Shown here: positions 15,704 through 63,776 of the stretch, piece after piece | Position numbering within the stretch: position 1 is the stretch's first letter | How the letters are laid out: each line of letters opens with the position of its first letter | Assembly (NCBI RefSeq): GCF_009818105.1 | Contig: NZ_CP046564.1 | Coordinates: forward strand, 186,001 to 250,000 | Source: Bacillus sp. N1-1 | GTDB taxonomy: Bacteria > Bacillota > Bacilli > Bacillales > Guptibacillaceae | Direction: 5' to 3' | Length of the DNA: 64,000 nt | The notes under the pieces: generated by a model | What the model saw: the letters and a program-made list of their open reading frames with translations, nothing else | The model's database searches: none | Told to the model about the DNA's origin: nothing | Made by a program: the position numbers and the translations under genes

Positions 15704-16669
15704 ATGGATATAAAGGAGTTTAGTGAGATGAACATTGAACCAAATTGTTGGAATGAATATGGACAGTTAAAAGCAGTTATCGTTTGTTCTCCGTCAATTT
15801 TAGATGTAACTGATCAACAGACAGCGACAGACGTGCAATGGGAAAAGGCAGTGAGACAAAAAAAGGCGAGAGAAAACCATGAGGTAATGATTGAATCGAT
15901 GGAGGAAGAAGGAGTGAATGTGATCGATTACTCTGTTCATTTATCACGAGACGAACTTTTACTAAATGAAAAATTAATCAACCGCATTTTCGTCCGCGAT
16001 CTTGCATGTGTGTTTGGAAATATTATTCTTCCCGGGGCAGCTGGAACGTCTATGAGAGGACCTGAATATTTTCAAAGTCACAAGTTATTTCAACAATGGT
16101 TTGATAACAAGACGTTTCGTGTGGAAGCAAATAATGATTTGAAGGCGCTCGAATATGGAGATGTGATGATCCTGAATAAAGATGCTATTTTGATAAATGC
16201 AGGCATTCGGACAAGCATTGAAAGTGTAGAAGCTTTGCAGGAAACTTTGTTCAAGGCTGGTTTCTCAGAAATTGGTGTCATTGATCTACCACGTCGACCG
16301 GATACAATTCACCTCGATATGAATTGTAACGTGGTTGGGGAAGAACTTTTTATTGGGAAAAGCTACATGAACTATTTACCGGTTCAGGTTATAACAGGAA
16401 ATGGGTTTACTTATGAAATGCTTGAACCTTTTATAAAGCGACATGGGTATGAAACAGAATGGACTTCTGACATTAAACATACCGTGGCAGATATCAATTT
16501 CTTAAATCTTAATCCAGAGACGCTGTTAATCAGTACAAAAGCTAATAAATCAATCTTTAAAAACCATTCTATTCTTAAAAAGAAAAAGCTGATTGAAGTA
16601 GAAGTAGACGAATTAGAAAAAGGGGGCGGTGGCATCCGGTGTATGACGTTGCCTTTGGAAAGAGAATAA
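15704..16669 (+). CDS. Arginine deiminase/DDAH-fold amidinohydrolase
   Basis: This belongs to the pentein superfamily of guanidine-modifying enzymes (dimethylarginine dimethylaminohydrolase or arginine deiminase type). It has 321 residues, with the N-terminal NCWNEYGQLKAVIV strand, FVRDLACVFG (acidic substrate contact), the catalytic histidine H203 in DTIHLDMNC and the nucleophile C313 in GGGIRCMT. The start may be the ATG at 15704 or the one at 15728, which has AAGGAG ten bases upstream and gives an N-terminus closer to relatives. It is divergent from an amino-acid permease. The substrate could be a methylated or free arginine derivative; this cannot be decided by eye. Confidence 0.85.
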   Translation: MDIKEFSEMNIEPNCWNEYGQLKAVIVCSPSILDVTDQQTATDVQWEKAVRQKKARENHEVMIESMEEEGVNVIDYSVHLSRDELLLNEKLINRIFVRDLACVFGNIILPGAAGTSMRGPEYFQSHKLFQQWFDNKTFRVEANNDLKALEYGDVMILNKDAILINAGIRTSIESVEALQETLFKAGFSEIGVIDLPRRPDTIHLDMNCNVVGEELFIGKSYMNYLPVQVITGNGFTYEMLEPFIKRHGYETEWTSDIKHTVADINFLNLNPETLLISTKANKSIFKNHSILKKKKLIEVEVDELEKGGGGIRCMTLPLERE

Positions 16670-50626: not shown

Positions 50627-50742
50627 TTGTTATGCAACCTTTCTTATATGAAACAGAGGAATAGAAGGCATAACCTAAGAATGATATAATTGTTCTAATA
50701 CTTAAGAGATGATTACACATTCAATAGAAAGTGAGGAAGCGG

Positions 50743-51225
50743 ATGCGACTGGAACCTTCAAAACGAATTGACCCAAAAGGGTTGAAAGTATGGCAAATAA
50801 CAGGGGGGATGGTTTCACTTATTTCCATTTTTCTCCTGAGTGGTTTGTTTGTCGTTCATGTCATCGTACGACCTCTCCCTTTATGGATTTTAGCGTTAGG
50901 TTGTGTGCTTGCTCTTCTATTTGTCATTCTCCAGACATGGTTGCTACCAAAACTGCGCTGGAAAAAATGGAGATATGAAGTCACTGAACACGAAATTGAA
51001 CTTAAACATGGCGTCATTATTGTGAAACGAACTCTCATTCCGATGGTTCGAGTTCAACATGTTGATACGAGACAGGGACCGCTGTTAAGAGCTTATCATC
51101 TGTCGTCGGTAACGATTTCAACTGCAGCTACGACGCATGAAATACCAGCTCTTTCAAACGAAGTTGCTGATGAGCTAAGAAATCGGATCTCGATTCTAGC
51201 AAGGGTGGCAGAAGATGATGTCTGA
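50743..51225 (+). CDS. ydbS: YdbS-like bacterial PH-domain membrane protein
   Basis: This 160-residue protein has two N-terminal membrane segments (about 20-65) and one bacterial PH (bPH2) domain, recognisable in RTLIPMVRVQHVDTRQGPLLR. The ATG at 50743 is chosen because GAGG lies seven bases upstream. It overlaps ydbT by 11 bp, as in B. subtilis. There YdbS and YdbT act together and have been linked to resistance against certain antimicrobial peptides; the mechanism is unknown to me. Confidence 0.88.
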   Translation: MRLEPSKRIDPKGLKVWQITGGMVSLISIFLLSGLFVVHVIVRPLPLWILALGCVLALLFVILQTWLLPKLRWKKWRYEVTEHEIELKHGVIIVKRTLIPMVRVQHVDTRQGPLLRAYHLSSVTISTAATTHEIPALSNEVADELRNRISILARVAEDDV

Positions 51226-52660
51226 GAAAAAACGCCTGCATCCAGTAGCAATGCTGTTATCTTTTGTAAAGTACGCTAAAGAAGCGGCTATTCCGTTAAT
51301 TTTCTTTGTTTTTGTTGGAGGAGGAAATGGTTACACGTGGTGGCACTTTCTAATGATCGGAGCACTTCTTCTATTCACTATAGGAAATGGAGTGCTAGGA
51401 TGGTTTTTTTATACATATCACATTGAAAACAACGAGCTACGCATCCATCAGGGATTTATCTTCCGCAAAAAGAGATTCATTCCTCGGGAGAGAATTCAAT
51501 CGATTGATTTTTCTCAAGGGTTAATACAGCGTGCATTTGGACTCGTTAAAGTGCAAATTGAGACAGCCGGAGGCGGGGGAGAACCGGAAGTGGTGATGTC
51601 AGCGTTAAAACGGAATGATGCTGAAATGTTGAAAAGCAATCTCTACCAGAAAAGAAATGCGGTCGCCGATGAAATGATGGAAGAAGTGGAGGAGAAACCG
51701 TCGCTGCTTTATAAACTTTCATGGAAAGAATTACTGATCACAGCTTCAACTTCAGGTGGTATAGGTGTTGTTCTTTCCTTCGTAGCGGCAATTGCCTCGC
51801 AAGTAGATGATTTCATTCCTAATCAGTTCTATGAAAGTGTAACAGAGCGGGTGATGGATGCTACGCTTCCATTTCTATTACTTGCAGTCGCCTTTCTGCT
51901 CTTGATATCATGGTTTTTCTCAGTCGTTGGTACTGTTCTAAAATATGGCGGCTTTGTTCTTACGCGACACGAGGATGATTTAATCATTAGTAGAGGGATT
52001 CTTGAAAAGCGTCAGTTAACCATTCCTGTTCATCGCATTCAGGGGATTCGAATTGTGGAAGGGCTCCTTCGTCAACCTTTTGGTTATTCGGTACTATACG
52101 TAGAAAGTGGCGGAGGCGGAGGAAAAGAGGAACAGTTTTCAACTGTATTATTTCCTCTCGTTAAACGAAAAAGAGTGAAAACATTATTAGGGGAAATCCT
52201 ACCTGAGATGGCCATTCATGACGAATGTTCACCCTTGCCTATTAGAGCAAAAAGACGTTATTTCATTCGATTCCTTCTGCCTGCTGTATTACCATTAGGA
52301 TTAATAACCTACTTTGTTCCATACGGTGCTTTCTCACTCTTGTTATTGCCAATTTGCTGTTTCATCGGTTATTTCCATTATCGTGATGCAGGTTGGGGTA
52401 TCAAAAAAGATGTCGCTCTTCTGCAATTTAGACAAATTTCAAAAACGAGAGTATACGTAGCAAGGAAAAACATTCAAGCAATGGAGTTGGAGACAACTTT
52501 TCTTCAAGAGCCCAAACAATTAACCACCTTTAAAATATCGATTTTATCAAGCTTTGCGGGAAAACAATTTAGGGTGAAAGATATTGAACATACAAATGGA
52601 GAAGAACTTTTAAATTGGTATTCTTACTCTGCCAAAAAAAATATAAAAGAAGAGGTATAA
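51215..52660 (+). CDS. ydbT: YdbT-like multi-PH-domain membrane protein
   Basis: This 481-residue partner of YdbS has paired membrane segments near residues 25-65, 165-245 and 345-395, each followed by a bPH2 domain. The repeated motif is visible as RFIPRERIQSIDFSQGLIQR, QLTIPVHRIQGIRIVEGLLR and a more divergent third copy RVYVARKNIQAMELETTFLQ. Three PH modules suggest a membrane scaffold. The start may be either of two tandem ATG codons. It is translationally coupled to ydbS. Confidence 0.88.
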   Translation: MMSEKKRLHPVAMLLSFVKYAKEAAIPLIFFVFVGGGNGYTWWHFLMIGALLLFTIGNGVLGWFFYTYHIENNELRIHQGFIFRKKRFIPRERIQSIDFSQGLIQRAFGLVKVQIETAGGGGEPEVVMSALKRNDAEMLKSNLYQKRNAVADEMMEEVEEKPSLLYKLSWKELLITASTSGGIGVVLSFVAAIASQVDDFIPNQFYESVTERVMDATLPFLLLAVAFLLLISWFFSVVGTVLKYGGFVLTRHEDDLIISRGILEKRQLTIPVHRIQGIRIVEGLLRQPFGYSVLYVESGGGGGKEEQFSTVLFPLVKRKRVKTLLGEILPEMAIHDECSPLPIRAKRRYFIRFLLPAVLPLGLITYFVPYGAFSLLLLPICCFIGYFHYRDAGWGIKKDVALLQFRQISKTRVYVARKNIQAMELETTFLQEPKQLTTFKISILSSFAGKQFRVKDIEHTNGEELLNWYSYSAKKNIKEEV

Positions 52661-52682: not shown

Positions 52683-52988
52683 ATGTACATTGTTAATTCG
52701 GTGATTAATGTACCAGAAGAAAAAGTGGATGAAGTGATCGGTATCTATCAGTCACGTTCGCGGCGGGTGGATGAGTTTGAGGGGTTTGAATCTTTCCGAC
52801 TTCTCCAAAATGAGAATAAACCTTCAGAACTCACCGTTCAAATGAAGTGGAAAACGAAAGATTCTTTTTTAACATGGATTAAAAGTCCTTCATATAAAGA
52901 AATACATGACCTTGAAAAGAAATATCCTGATCAGGAACTAGCCGCAATAAAACCAAAAGTATCTCGCTTTAAGGTTGTAGCTGAATGA
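52683..52988 (+). CDS. IsdG-family haem-degrading monooxygenase (HmoA/HmoB-like)
   Basis: This 101-residue ABM-fold protein, active as a dimer in relatives, opens haem to release iron. The residues N5, W65 and H75 have the same 60- and 10-residue spacing as the Asn-Trp-His set of Staphylococcus IsdG, so haem degradation is likely. AAGGAGGG precedes the ATG. Its stop overlaps the next gene (ATGATGA), linking it to the B12-sensor-like cluster, another tetrapyrrole system. No Fur box is seen directly upstream. Confidence 0.85.
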   Translation: MYIVNSVINVPEEKVDEVIGIYQSRSRRVDEFEGFESFRLLQNENKPSELTVQMKWKTKDSFLTWIKSPSYKEIHDLEKKYPDQELAAIKPKVSRFKVVAE

Positions 52989-53365
52989 TGAGCCAAATCG
53001 ATGCGATTATTGACCGAGTTGTTCACGGTATCTATCATGATATGCCCGAACTATTAGAGAAATATGGAGAACAGGGTCGTGTGAAGTGCCGTGAAGATAA
53101 TTATCATCACATCAAACACCTGAATTCGGCGCGCAACCTGGATTCGGATGATTTTTTTGTTGATTATGTTTTATGGCTGAATAATATTCTAACTGCTAGA
53201 GGTATGAAAACCGAGCACTTAATTGATAATTTCAAGCGTCTGGAAAATGAATTGCGTGCATCTGAGTCGTTCGAAGAGAAGGAAGATTATCTTAGAACGT
53301 TGAAAAAAGGTCTTGCAGAGCTGGAAGAACTAACAGTTGATAGTTCTTCGTATACAAAGAGGTGA
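52985..53365 (+). CDS. Unknown helical protein in the B12/STAS cluster
   Basis: This 126-residue soluble protein is predicted to be entirely helical. It contains several histidines (EDNYHHIKHLNSAR) and a C-terminal charged coiled-coil-like region (ELRASESFEEKEDYLRTLKK). I recognise no family. It overlaps the haem monooxygenase gene by four bases and ends five bases before the B12-binding gene, so all are co-translated. It could be a sensor partner of the globin-like helical kind found in RsbR N-termini, but nothing in the sequence proves that. Confidence 0.75.
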   Translation: MMSQIDAIIDRVVHGIYHDMPELLEKYGEQGRVKCREDNYHHIKHLNSARNLDSDDFFVDYVLWLNNILTARGMKTEHLIDNFKRLENELRASESFEEKEDYLRTLKKGLAELEELTVDSSSYTKR

Positions 53366-53369
53366 GCAT

Positions 53370-54029
53370 GTGTCGATAGATATAAAAGGGTTAACAGATG
53401 ACTTTCTTGAAGGTGATCAAGATCAAGCATGGGAAAGAATAACAGCGCAGTCTGAATTGATGACAAATAGCCATTTAACCTTTGAAGCTCTTACGAAAGC
53501 CATGCAGCGAATTGGTGAGTTATGGGAAGGAAATGAAATATCAGTTGCGGACGAGCACTTAGCTACAACTACGTGTGATTATGTTCTTTCTCGGTATGCC
53601 CATTTCAGGAAAATTACGAATAAGAATGAAGATGGCCCGAAAGCCCTTTTTCTTTGTATTGAACAAGAACAGCATTATTTAGGCTTGAAAATGATATCGT
53701 TACTCTTTCAAGAGTATGGCTGGCAAACAAAGCTGTTTGGAGCCAATTTACCTCTTGAATATGCCTTAGAGAAAACGGAGAAATGGGGAGCATCAGTTGT
53801 TGGTATTTCGGTTGCAATCTTGTACCATGCTGAGCGATTAAATCGTTATGTCACTGATCTTGAAGCGTTGGAAAATCCTCCTGAAGTCTTAGTTGGAGGG
53901 AGGCTTACCTCACAGTACAACTTGTCTAAATATTGCTCTGAACATACAACGTTGGTTCCTGATTTACATCATGTTCGTGAATGGCTGAAAGCGAGGAAAG
54001 GGAGTATGAATAATGTTCGATATAAATGA
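53370..54029 (+). CDS. Stand-alone B12-binding protein with CarH-type photoreceptor motif
   Basis: This 219-residue protein has two parts: a helical cap (about 1-80) and a Rossmann-type cobalamin-binding domain (about 90-210). The cap holds W52 and E62-H63, which is the Wx9EH motif of CarH light sensors that surrounds the adenosyl group. The Rossmann part has E100-x-H102-x-x-G105, a variant of DxHxxG with the lower ligand histidine kept, followed by the VVGISV strand and LVGGR. No MerR-type DNA-binding domain is present. The GTG start follows GAGGTGAG. The gene overlaps the PAS/STAS gene by 17 bp. Regulation through protein contact is therefore inferred. Confidence 0.85.
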   Translation: MSIDIKGLTDDFLEGDQDQAWERITAQSELMTNSHLTFEALTKAMQRIGELWEGNEISVADEHLATTTCDYVLSRYAHFRKITNKNEDGPKALFLCIEQEQHYLGLKMISLLFQEYGWQTKLFGANLPLEYALEKTEKWGASVVGISVAILYHAERLNRYVTDLEALENPPEVLVGGRLTSQYNLSKYCSEHTTLVPDLHHVREWLKARKGSMNNVRYK

Positions 54030-54783
54030 TCATCCACTCCCTGCTTTTTTAGTTGATGAGGAACTAAACATTCTTTCACAATCAAAGCTTGCAACGGAAG
54101 CTTTTTCTCCTCGTTCTTCTTTTTTGGAGCTTGTTGATATCGATAGTCGAACGAAAGCTGCCAAAATGCTGAACCCGCTTTTGAAAGAAACTGAAGTTGA
54201 ATTAGTTATGGGCACTGCCCAGTCCCCTTATTCTCTGTTTCATGTTTATGCAAAGTGGTCCATGAGTGGTGGAGGACAGCTGGTGTGTGTAAGGCAAGAT
54301 GAACGATTGGAAAAACTATCAAAGGCGCTTCAAAAACAGCAGGAAAGACTCGCGGATACGAACTTTGATTTATTGGATAAAAAAGAAGAGCTTGAAGCAG
54401 CTTTAGTGAAAGTGAAAAAGCTTTCTAGCCCCTTCCTCCCCATTTCAGCGTCACTCGGCATTATTCCATTGTTTGGCGAGCTTGAGGAAAATCTTTTTCG
54501 AGTTAATGAGCATCAGCTGTTACAAACGCTTCAGAATGGCGATTATGAACGTGTGATTCTAGATTTTAGTGGGATTGGTGAAGTACACGCCAGTGGTGTG
54601 CTTGCGTTGCTTTCGTTTTGTAGTATGCTCGAAGTTGTGGGGGTTTCTCCGATTTTATGTGGGATAAAACCGACTCATGCCCGACATCTAGCGAATCACG
54701 ATTTTGTGTTAAACCAACATTTTGATATCACGGGAAATTTAAAAAACGCCGTTCGCTATTATTTAAATGACTCTTTCATGTAA
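54013..54783 (+). CDS. PAS-like/STAS regulatory protein
   Basis: This 256-residue cytosolic protein has three parts: a PAS-like N-terminal domain (about 1-95, LPAFLVDEELNILSQSKLA), a coiled coil (about 100-140, KALQKQQERLADTNFDLLDKK) and a C-terminal STAS domain (about 145-256). The STAS core VILDFSGIGEVHASGVLALL has S194 where anti-anti-sigma factors are phosphorylated. The layout copies RsbR-type stressosome proteins with a different sensor. It overlaps the B12-binding gene, so the two products probably interact. It may feed the sigma-B pathway encoded downstream or another partner-switch system. Confidence 0.85.
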   Translation: MFDINDHPLPAFLVDEELNILSQSKLATEAFSPRSSFLELVDIDSRTKAAKMLNPLLKETEVELVMGTAQSPYSLFHVYAKWSMSGGGQLVCVRQDERLEKLSKALQKQQERLADTNFDLLDKKEELEAALVKVKKLSSPFLPISASLGIIPLFGELEENLFRVNEHQLLQTLQNGDYERVILDFSGIGEVHASGVLALLSFCSMLEVVGVSPILCGIKPTHARHLANHDFVLNQHFDITGNLKNAVRYYLNDSFM

Positions 54784-54812
54784 AAGACCAGTGATGAGAT
54801 CACTGGTCTTTA
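54782..54812 (+). terminator. Bidirectional terminator
   Basis: AAAGACCAGTGAT and ATCACTGGTCTTT arms lie between the STAS and rhomboid genes. Confidence 0.9.
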
Positions 54813-60926: not shown

Positions 60927-61155
60927 TATCAATCCATTCAAACGCAAGTTAATTATGGTGAATATGGAACAGATTGGTCCCTTCTATTTCCGAACATTTA
61001 GTGTGGCCGACAGCAGGGAATTTTCTAGTTATGTCGAAAAGTGTGTTAAGATGAAAATGATGTAATGTGCTAAGACTAGGAAAGCATAATTATTGCGAGA
61101 CGTTCCTTGCAATGAGAAGATAAATGAATGTAGAAAGATCGTAGGGAGGAGCAAG

Positions 61156-61977
61156 ATGGACAAGTTAGTCATACAATTATTGAATGAAAGTCGTGAACGA
61201 ATCTACACCAGATGGATGGATGAGATGGAGAGGGTTCGTGATGAGCATCGGCTACAATCAATAACGGATACAGCCTATGAAGAAACGAACAAAGAGCTTT
61301 TTGAAATCATTTATACGCATATAGAGCAAAATGTTCATAAGCCAACAGATCGAATGACAGGGTTTGCTGAACATCTAATGAAGATTGGATGGAGACTTAG
61401 CTATATAACGCAAGGTTTGCAAAACTTCCGTCGAATTATTTTAGCAGTTCTACTAGATGCGAATCAATCTAATGAAAAAGTATACAGTATGTATGATGAA
61501 ATTGATCGTTGGATTGACCCTATCGTGAACCAGCTGATTAATGAAAGTGCAAAGAACTGGGAAAACACCGTTTCAATTCAAAAGGTTGCTCTTCAAGAAT
61601 TGTCGGCACCGCTCATTCCAGTATTTGAGAATATTAGTGTCATGCCACTGATCGGAACCATTGATACTGAGAGAGCCAAGCTGATCATGGAGAATTTGTT
61701 AACCGGTGTAATTAAACATCGATCACAAGTGGTCCTTATTGATATTACTGGAGTTCCTGTAGTCGATACAATGGTTGCTCATCATATTATACAGGCAGCT
61801 GAAGCAGTTCGTCTCGTTGGGGCGCAGTGTATTCTAGTTGGAATTAGGCCGGAGATTGCTCAAACAATCGTTAACCTGGGGATCGATCTTGGTCAATTCC
61901 CTACGAAAAGCACATTATTTAAAGGCATGAAAACTGCATTAGAAATGACAAAACGCAAAATGATTGAGATTGAGTAA
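61156..61977 (+). CDS. rsbRA: Stressosome co-antagonist RsbRA
   Basis: RsbRA is a sensor subunit of the stressosome that holds RsbT in unstressed cells. It has 273 residues from the ATG at 61156 (GGGAGGAG upstream), with a non-haem-globin-like N-terminal domain (about 1-135) and a C-terminal STAS domain. The two phosphorylated threonines of B. subtilis RsbRA, T171 and T205, are at the same positions here (TIDTERA and VVDTMVAHH). It heads rsbR-rsbS-rsbT-rsbU-rsbV. Confidence 0.96.
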
Positions 61978-61988
61978 GGGGGAAGACA

Positions 61989-62345
61989 ATGCGAATTCCT
62001 ATATTAAAACTGAATCAATATTTACTAATTACAATTCAAGTTGATCTCGATGACAAAACAGCACTTCAATTTCAGGAGGATTTGCTCGAGAAGATTCATG
62101 AAACAGGAGCAAAAGGCGTTGTAATTGATTTAACATCTGTCGATATGATTGACTCCTTCATTGCTAAAGTTTTAGGCGATGTGGTGCGCATGTCAAATTT
62201 AATGGGGGCAAAAGTAGTGCTCACAGGAATCCAACCTGCTGTTGCTATTACGCTAATTGATTTAGGTATTATGATGAAAAACGTCCCGACTGCATTAGAT
62301 TTAGAACAGGGGTTAGAGAAATTACAACAGGAATTGGGGGGATAA
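61989..62345 (+). CDS. rsbS: Stressosome scaffold RsbS
   Basis: RsbS is a single STAS-domain protein of 118 residues that forms the stressosome core with RsbR and is phosphorylated by RsbT. The target serine is S56 in [10 protein letters not shown], equal to S59 of B. subtilis. It lies 11 bp after rsbRA and three bases before rsbT. Confidence 0.96.
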
Positions 62346-62348
62346 GTT

Positions 62349-62750
62349 ATGAATATCCAATCCTGTGTGGAAGTACGAAATGAGTGGGATATCGTGAAAG
62401 CGAGGCAGTCTGGTAGGAATATTGCTAAAGAACTTGGCTTCGGTACGGTCGATCAAGCTCGCATTACAACTGCTATTTCTGAACTCGCGCGTAACATATA
62501 CCTCTATGCTGGAAGTGGCGAAGTAGCCATTGAACGTGTAGAAAACGGTGGAAAATTTGGTCTTAAAATTGAAGCATCCGACTCGGGCCCAGGAATTAAA
62601 GACATTAGAAAAGTAATGGAAGATGGTTTTACAACCTCTGGTGGTCTTGGAGCTGGTTTACCTGGTGTTAAACGATTGATGGATGAGTTTACAATTGATT
62701 CGAAAGAGAACGAAGGTACAGTTATCACTTCTATTAAATGGCTCCGTTAA
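62349..62750 (+). CDS. rsbT: Switch kinase RsbT
   Basis: RsbT is a serine/threonine kinase of the GHKL fold that, once released from the stressosome, activates the phosphatase RsbU. It has 133 residues with the ATP-binding motifs ISELARNIYLYAGSG (N box), EASDSGPGIKDI (G1) and GGLGAGLPGVKRLMD (G2). It is closely spaced to rsbS, and rsbU follows 15 bp later. Confidence 0.96.
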   Translation: MNIQSCVEVRNEWDIVKARQSGRNIAKELGFGTVDQARITTAISELARNIYLYAGSGEVAIERVENGGKFGLKIEASDSGPGIKDIRKVMEDGFTTSGGLGAGLPGVKRLMDEFTIDSKENEGTVITSIKWLR

Positions 62751-62765
62751 GGAGGATCGAGCATA

Positions 62766-63776
62766 ATGGACGACCGAGATCTTCAATATCAAAAGTATAA
62801 AGCAATATTAGAAAACTATTTAGAAGAGCAATCTGAGCAAACCTTATATAAGGGACAGCAGTTTAGTCGGAAGATGATTGAACAAAAGATCTCCCCTGAA
62901 GAAGCAGTCAGTCTCCACGTAAGTGTTCTAGAGGAACTATTTCCTGATATTCCTGAGCCGCTTAAAAACTCGTATGATTTTTTGCTTGAAATGATGATTG
63001 GGTACGGATTTGCCTATCGAGAGCATCAAAGTCTTCGTAGTCGACAGCAGCAGTTGGAATCTGAAATTGAAATTGCTGCAAATATGCAACAAACGTTACT
63101 AGCGGGCGATAAACCGGAGGTACCGAATCTTGATATTGGTGCCATTAGTAAACCCGCCCAGAAAATGAGCGGGGATTACTATCATTTTGTTCAAGACGAA
63201 AATGATTGTGTTAGTGTAGCGATTGCAGATGTAATTGGAAAAGGTATTCCTGCTGCACTTTGTATGAGTATGATTAAGTACACAATGGATAGCGCACCAG
63301 AGCAGCGAATGCAGCCTGGAGCTGTTCTTGAGAACCTTAACCGCGTAGTGGAACAAAATGTTGATCCTAATATGTTTATTACGATGTTTTATGGATTATA
63401 TGATCCGAGGGTGCATTCATTTTATTACGCTGGAGCCGGTCATGAGCCGGGCTTTTTTTACGATGCGGAAAAGGATGAATTTGAAGAGCTCTTTACGAGA
63501 GGACTTGTTCTTGGTGTTTCAAAGAAAACATCATATCAAGAATACCAGCGAGTACTTAATGGAAATGATATGGTTATCATGCTTTCTGACGGTGTTACCG
63601 AATGCCGTTCGACCAATGGTTTTATTGAACGCGATGAAATCGTAGCGTTGATTCGTAAATATATTCACCTCTCAGCACAAGAAATTGTGGAAGAGGTTTA
63701 CCGAGAACTTGAGCGTCTGCAGGAGTTTGAACTCAGAGATGATTTCACCCTTGTTATTTTAAGACGTGAGGTTTAA
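62766..63776 (+). CDS. rsbU: PP2C-type phosphatase RsbU
   Basis: RsbU dephosphorylates RsbV, which frees sigma-B. It has 336 residues, with an N-terminal RsbT-binding four-helix region (about 1-85), a coiled linker (EIEIAANMQQTLL) and the PPM phosphatase domain with SGDYYHF, the metal-binding AIADVIGKGIPAAL and MLSDGVTE. AAGGAGG precedes the ATG. Its stop codon lies in a sigma-B-type promoter for the downstream genes. Confidence 0.96.
   Translation: MDDRDLQYQKYKAILENYLEEQSEQTLYKGQQFSRKMIEQKISPEEAVSLHVSVLEELFPDIPEPLKNSYDFLLEMMIGYGFAYREHQSLRSRQQQLESEIEIAANMQQTLLAGDKPEVPNLDIGAISKPAQKMSGDYYHFVQDENDCVSVAIADVIGKGIPAALCMSMIKYTMDSAPEQRMQPGAVLENLNRVVEQNVDPNMFITMFYGLYDPRVHSFYYAGAGHEPGFFYDAEKDEFEELFTRGLVLGVSKKTSYQEYQRVLNGNDMVIMLSDGVTECRSTNGFIERDEIVALIRKYIHLSAQEIVEEVYRELERLQEFELRDDFTLVILRREV

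Follow-up and report, generated by a model that had tools for sequence, protein, structure and literature searches.

The window analysed here is a stretch of 64,000 nucleotides from Bacillus sp. N1-1 (NZ_CP046564.1, positions 186,001 to 250,000), whose genome is a single 4.5 Mb contig. It carries a cassette of four closely spaced genes on the + strand, encoding an ABM-family protein, a photoglobin, a B12-binding protein and a PAS-like/STAS protein; an earlier note on this DNA had named only the last two.

52683..52988, + strand: ABM/IsdG-HmoA-like protein, 101 aa (PF03992, 48.5 bits against a cut-off of 23.1), with Ser6 where the catalytic Asn would stand, plus Trp65 and His75
52985..53365, + strand: stand-alone photoglobin, 126 aa, with the bilin-type motif C35-x-E37-D38 (codons 53087-53098)
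53370..54029, + strand: stand-alone B12-binding photosensor-type protein, 219 aa (PF02607 and PF02310), with W52 (53523-53525), E62-H63 (53553-53558) and H102 (53673-53675)
54013..54783, + strand: protein of 256 aa with a PAS-like domain, helical linker and STAS domain, an RsbR/YtvA-type output

The ABM and photoglobin genes overlap by 4 bases, a gap of 4 bases separates the photoglobin gene from the B12 gene, and the overlap of the B12 and STAS genes, already seen in the earlier note, measures 17 bases. Here, we establish the gene order, predicted folds, motifs and conservation of this cassette, together with a natural fusion of two of its components.

The B12 protein consists of two Pfam B12 domains. 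No helix-turn-helix or other DNA-binding family is found among its Pfam matches, and it scores 43.6 bits with the CarH equivalog model, below the cut-off of 400, which bears out its description as a protein lacking a DNA-binding domain. Its closest solved structures are the cobalamin-binding 8jbs and the photocobilins 8j2w, 8j2x and 8j2y, followed by CarH, and its nearest named relatives come from Bacillus sp. Cs-700 and Pseudalkalibacillus hwajinpoensis. By alignment, W52, E62-H63 and H102 correspond to SasPcob Trp61, Glu71-His72 and His108 (chain numbering plus 6, by our own count), which are described as stacking on the ribose, linking across the dimer and binding cobalt, respectively (PMC10979010). 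Scanning contigs with 30 B12 proteins as queries yielded 279 confirmed relatives, the best 80 of which were kept and, together with the window, make up 81 loci; the photosensor residues singled out earlier (W52, E62, H63 and H102) are retained in all 81, as are G49, G124 and P128. Both B12 photosensor motifs, W-EH (W52, E62, H63) and E/DxH (E100-x-H102), are present, and the protein fits the published signature GxxW, EH, GxxH, GxxxP (PMC11796333) apart from position 99, where it has Q and 33 of the 81 loci have G. An adenosyltransferase is encoded in 30 of 30 genomes examined, making adenosylcobalamin supply plausible. The earlier note had proposed light or B12 status as the input to partner switching; residue conservation and the closest solved relatives, photocobilins and CarH, make light the well-supported candidate, rather than plain B12 status. 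A separate full-length MerR-B12 protein of CarH/LitR type is found in the same genome (L002, 2579324-2579713).

Around the B12 gene, ABM, photoglobin and STAS genes are all found in 57 of the 81 loci, the STAS gene only in 20, and ABM and photoglobin with no STAS gene found locally in four, one of which (L050) has its STAS gene upstream; the B12/STAS pair first described in the window recurs, with both genes together in 77 of 81 loci, plus L050. ABM and photoglobin co-occur or are jointly absent throughout (81/81), and in the 20 genomes lacking the pair locally, a photoglobin is encoded elsewhere in 16 and is absent from four (E 0.001). Across 199 genomes of the same taxonomic order, photoglobin (E 1e-5) was found in 80, cassette-type ABM (E 1e-25) in 70 and the B12 type (E 1e-40) in 82; photoglobin and B12 type occurred together in 70 genomes, photoglobin only in 10 and B12 only in 12, and all ABM genes (70/70) lay directly upstream of photoglobin on the same strand. 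In photoglobin genomes where ABM or B12 did not reach these cut-offs, 13 stretches were examined: the B12 gene next to photoglobin was weaker or broken in four (L136, L141, L142, L143), ABM was weak or partial in two (L133, L135), and photoglobin itself was short or broken in two (L134 and L140, the latter in two pieces). ABM was adjacent in 17 of 19 stretches around photoglobins, some of which repeat loci of the best 80, and not in L101 or L111. Because the genomes are related, such linkage counts do not represent independent events. Across the phylum, 12 of 398 genomes have a photoglobin match, Bacillus sp. N1-1 included.

Eight genomes, all of other families, carry a single frame of about 360 residues in which a photoglobin (E 1.5e-20 to 6.3e-12) is followed by a B12 domain, and at L125 an ABM gene lies directly upstream of this fusion. 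At the four fusion loci scanned (L121, L122, L125, L127), the next gene encodes a HisKA/HATPase kinase in three and a GGDEF protein in one. The photoglobin-B12 pair is therefore a portable sensor that is joined to different outputs, a trait of known photocobilins too.

The STAS domain of the partner protein is of the RsbR/RsbS type, its closest folds being RsbS and the stressosome RsbR, and it is preceded by an LSxPxxPI-type linker motif. Family scans gave no LOV match for the PAS-like domain, and the YtvA equivalog (LOV-STAS) reaches 63 bits against a cut-off of 250, over residues 123-237 only. An RsbS orthologue (E 1e-15) occurs in 29 of the 30 genomes, which is consistent with assembly of the STAS protein with RsbS and RsbT. 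RsbT phosphorylates RsbR at T171 and T205 (PMC6614362). These positions align with E156 and A193, which rejects S194 as the phosphoserine that the earlier note had supposed; the loss of both would suit a protein that is not a stressosome subunit and instead drives other partner switching or a dedicated output, as would the kinases and GGDEF protein beside the fusions. However, YtvA, counted among the RsbR paralogues (PMC6614362), has Asn and Glu there in the alignment and likewise lacks both phospho-threonines, and with the closest folds and the near-universal RsbS also pointing to the stressosome, we regard an output outside it as rather doubtful. As observations on related proteins, partners at L058 (8665-9282) and L042 (8661-9299) keep the PAS-like part and have a different C-terminus without STAS. 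A search of the genome for RsbR-type STAS proteins gave 13 matches including the query, a large set (L092-L098) with varied N-termini as read by eye; L094 is a separate YtvA-type PAS-STAS protein (PAS-STAS confirmed by scan, LOV motif by eye).

The RsbR/YtvA-type STAS domain and the RsbS orthologues are better evidence for a stressosome output than nearness to the sigma-B operon, to which the earlier note had appealed. The operon is indeed present, at 61093..63776, well beyond a hairpin that follows the cassette:

54784..54811, no strand: hairpin, likely a terminator, where the STAS gene and the rhomboid gene converge (by reading the sequence)
61093-61977, + strand: rsbR-type gene of the sigma-B stressosome operon (PF08678 and STAS)
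61989-62345, + strand: rsbS-type gene of the same operon (STAS match)
62349-62750, + strand: rsbT-type gene of the same operon (assigned by position and translation only)
62766-63776, + strand: rsbU-type gene of the same operon (PF07228/PF08673)

Its nearness is nevertheless weak evidence, because the convergent rhomboid-type gene that lies beyond the hairpin follows the cassette directly in only 16 of the 81 loci (window included), the others having different neighbours or, in L012, a contig end.

The photoglobin is predicted to adopt the bilin-binding globin fold of photocobilins and phycobiliproteins, with weak support from sequence-only and Foldseek searches (nothing at E 0.001 or better in Foldseek). 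It matches bilin globins best, not heme globins, with one heme globin at Foldseek rank 37. D38 is in register with SasPcob Asp270 in two alignments and is probably its equivalent. Where phycobiliproteins have CXRD, the photoglobin has CxED, with Cys and Asp in register; PF00502 gave no match to the window protein at E 1, and matched one fused relative at E 0.03, below the cut-off. Among 95 distinct full-length photoglobins (seven short rows dropped), 75 have both the Cys and an ABM gene, 16 neither, four ABM without the Cys, and none the Cys without ABM. On a tree, the Cys changes as few as two times and ABM five, and an independent-pairs test has too few pairs for significance; with so few changes, the association reflects mainly one large clade rather than repeated evidence.

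Profile matches of the ABM protein are IsdI, IsdG and HmoB structures, its solved relatives being mostly of IsdG type, for which the catalytic triad is given as Asn6-Trp66-His76 (PMC4835899). The cassette protein has Ser6, Trp65 and His75 instead. Across the aligned loci (those passing the open reading frame filter: 56 of 61 for ABM and photoglobin, 76 of 77 for STAS), Ser takes the place of the catalytic Asn in 55 of 56, the remaining one having a gap there, Trp65 is kept in 45 and replaced by Tyr in 11, and His75 is invariant (56/56), marking a distinct branch of the family. In the window protein Asn5 stands next to Ser6, one residue off the catalytic position, and a one-residue alignment shift is therefore possible; nine of the 56 carry Asn at position 5. 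At L109, the ABM gene is split over two open frames. By its sequence, the protein may be a monooxygenase whose chemistry has changed, or else it may carry or load bilin. Canonical heme oxygenase (PF01126) was found in 0 of 30 genomes (3 of 14 controls were positive; HugZ- and HemS-like types lie outside this search), which raises the question of which bilin these genomes use.

Another reading is a heme- or iron-status sensor: heme would be handled by ABM and the globin-like protein, the STAS protein would receive B12 or redox status from the B12 protein, and light would be incidental. Solved ABM relatives degrade heme, His75 is invariant, and heme turnover is plausible because the genome encodes HmoA-like (L085) and HmoB-like (L086) proteins elsewhere, in which Asn, Trp and His all stand where expected (names and residues assigned by eye). 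Yet the photoglobin sides with bilin globins, W52, E62 and H63, which lie around the adenosyl group in photosensors, never vary, and the window holds no cobalamin riboswitch, indeed no riboswitch, at Rfam gathering thresholds, so that we judge a heme sensor unlikely.

We consider it probable, though by no means assured, that the cassette as a whole is a four-gene light-sensing operon, in which adenosylcobalamin senses light, a bilin acts as its antenna in trans, and the signal feeds the stressosome; we are surer of the B12 photosensor and the bilin fold than of what ABM does or where the output goes. The cofactors, complex, light response and output we infer as follows. The B12 protein would hold adenosylcobalamin as in CarH and SasPcob, and the photoglobin a linear tetrapyrrole, Cys35 probably being the point of attachment and Asp38 lying on the pyrrole nitrogens. 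Docking of the photoglobin on the B12 protein would couple the chromophores, like the two domains of single-chain photocobilins, making the supposed lone CarH-like sensor one half of a two-protein B12 and bilin sensor. ABM, given its invariant linkage, may make, carry or load the bilin, the Asn-to-Ser change leaving its chemistry open. Breakage of the Co-C bond, by green light directly and by red light via the bilin, would alter the B12 dimer, and the PAS-like/STAS protein, built into the stressosome, would relay this change to RsbT release and sigma-B. That B12 and STAS proteins alone form the working green-light pair, with ABM and photoglobin a separate module (e.g. for bilin storage or signalling) sharing the operon, fits the 20 STAS-only loci and the four of those genomes without a photoglobin, but is quite improbable given the fusion in eight genomes, all four genes in 57 of 81 loci and the optical coupling described for photocobilins (PMC10979010). 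A more specific version of the favoured scheme remains speculative: a two-polypeptide photocobilin whose tetrapyrrole is not heme oxygenase biliverdin but is made or loaded by the altered IsdG/HmoA-family protein, held covalently on the photoglobin and coupled across the interface to adenosylcobalamin, and informing the stressosome of both green and red light. If the favoured scheme holds, the sigma-B response of Bacillaceae-type bacteria would be open to green and red light as well as to blue light through YtvA, photocobilin halves would be mixable, replaceable and separately regulated, which would be useful for optogenetics, and whether an IsdG-family protein can supply a photoreceptor pigment would become a testable question.

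Upstream of the cassette, two genes at 50731-52660, which we take to be of YdbS/YdbT type, end 22 bases 5′ of the ABM start, and because of this the cassette may share their promoter in Bacillus sp. N1-1. Measured against mononucleotide shuffles, a sigma-B-like promoter upstream of ABM (4 of 56 loci, 1.4 expected) was not persuasive. Of the 20 STAS-only loci, five carry a sigma-B-like pattern some 160-205 bases upstream of the B12 gene, against 0.4 expected; these (L022, L029, L047, L069, L072) represent only two near-identical pattern groups. At L073, a guanidine-I riboswitch (16381-16484, 86 bits) is unrelated to the cassette.

The observation in the earlier note is thus partly confirmed and its interpretation partly supported. 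Its statement that no characterised system has this composition holds for the whole set within our literature search (titles and the opening of abstracts, the Schneider 2022 neighbourhood survey lying outside it), which returned no description of a cassette that joins an ABM of its own to a photoglobin with a conserved bilin-type Cys and to a partner of stressosome type. It does not hold for the sensor core, which photocobilins share in one chain; photocobilins, photoglobin-B12 neighbourhoods and stand-alone globin and B12 clusters are already known. With CarH and LitR the B12 protein has in common the photosensor residues of the B12 domain, whereas the MerR DNA-binding domain belongs to CarH/LitR only. 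With YtvA and RsbR the STAS protein shares a sensor domain, helical linker and STAS domain with the LSxPxxPI-type motif and, with YtvA, the non-Ser/Thr phospho-positions; unlike in YtvA, its PAS-like domain has no LOV match, and separate proteins would sense light. Like IsdG, IsdI, HmoA and HmoB, the ABM protein belongs to the ABM family with His75 invariant and Trp65 mostly kept, but has Ser for the catalytic Asn. In BBAG-2 photoglobins, too, the globin gene adjoins a separate B12-binding gene, and these clusters include pre-PcyA, with heme oxygenase nearby or elsewhere in the genome (PMC10151467); the cassette differs in its C-x-E-D motif, ABM gene and STAS output, and in the absence of PF01126 from the 30 genomes. 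Closest are the photocobilins SasPcob and AbDPcob (PDB 8J2W, 8J2X, 8J2Y), which combine a B12 domain bearing the W, EH and H residues with a globin that binds bilin and whose fold is the one predicted here. They are single chains and are described as lacking the bilin-type Cys found here as Cys35 (PMC10979010), whereas the cassette divides its sensor between two polypeptides, has that Cys and adds dedicated ABM and STAS output genes. The cassette sensor therefore resembles a split photocobilin in its working, while falling outside the single-chain definition.
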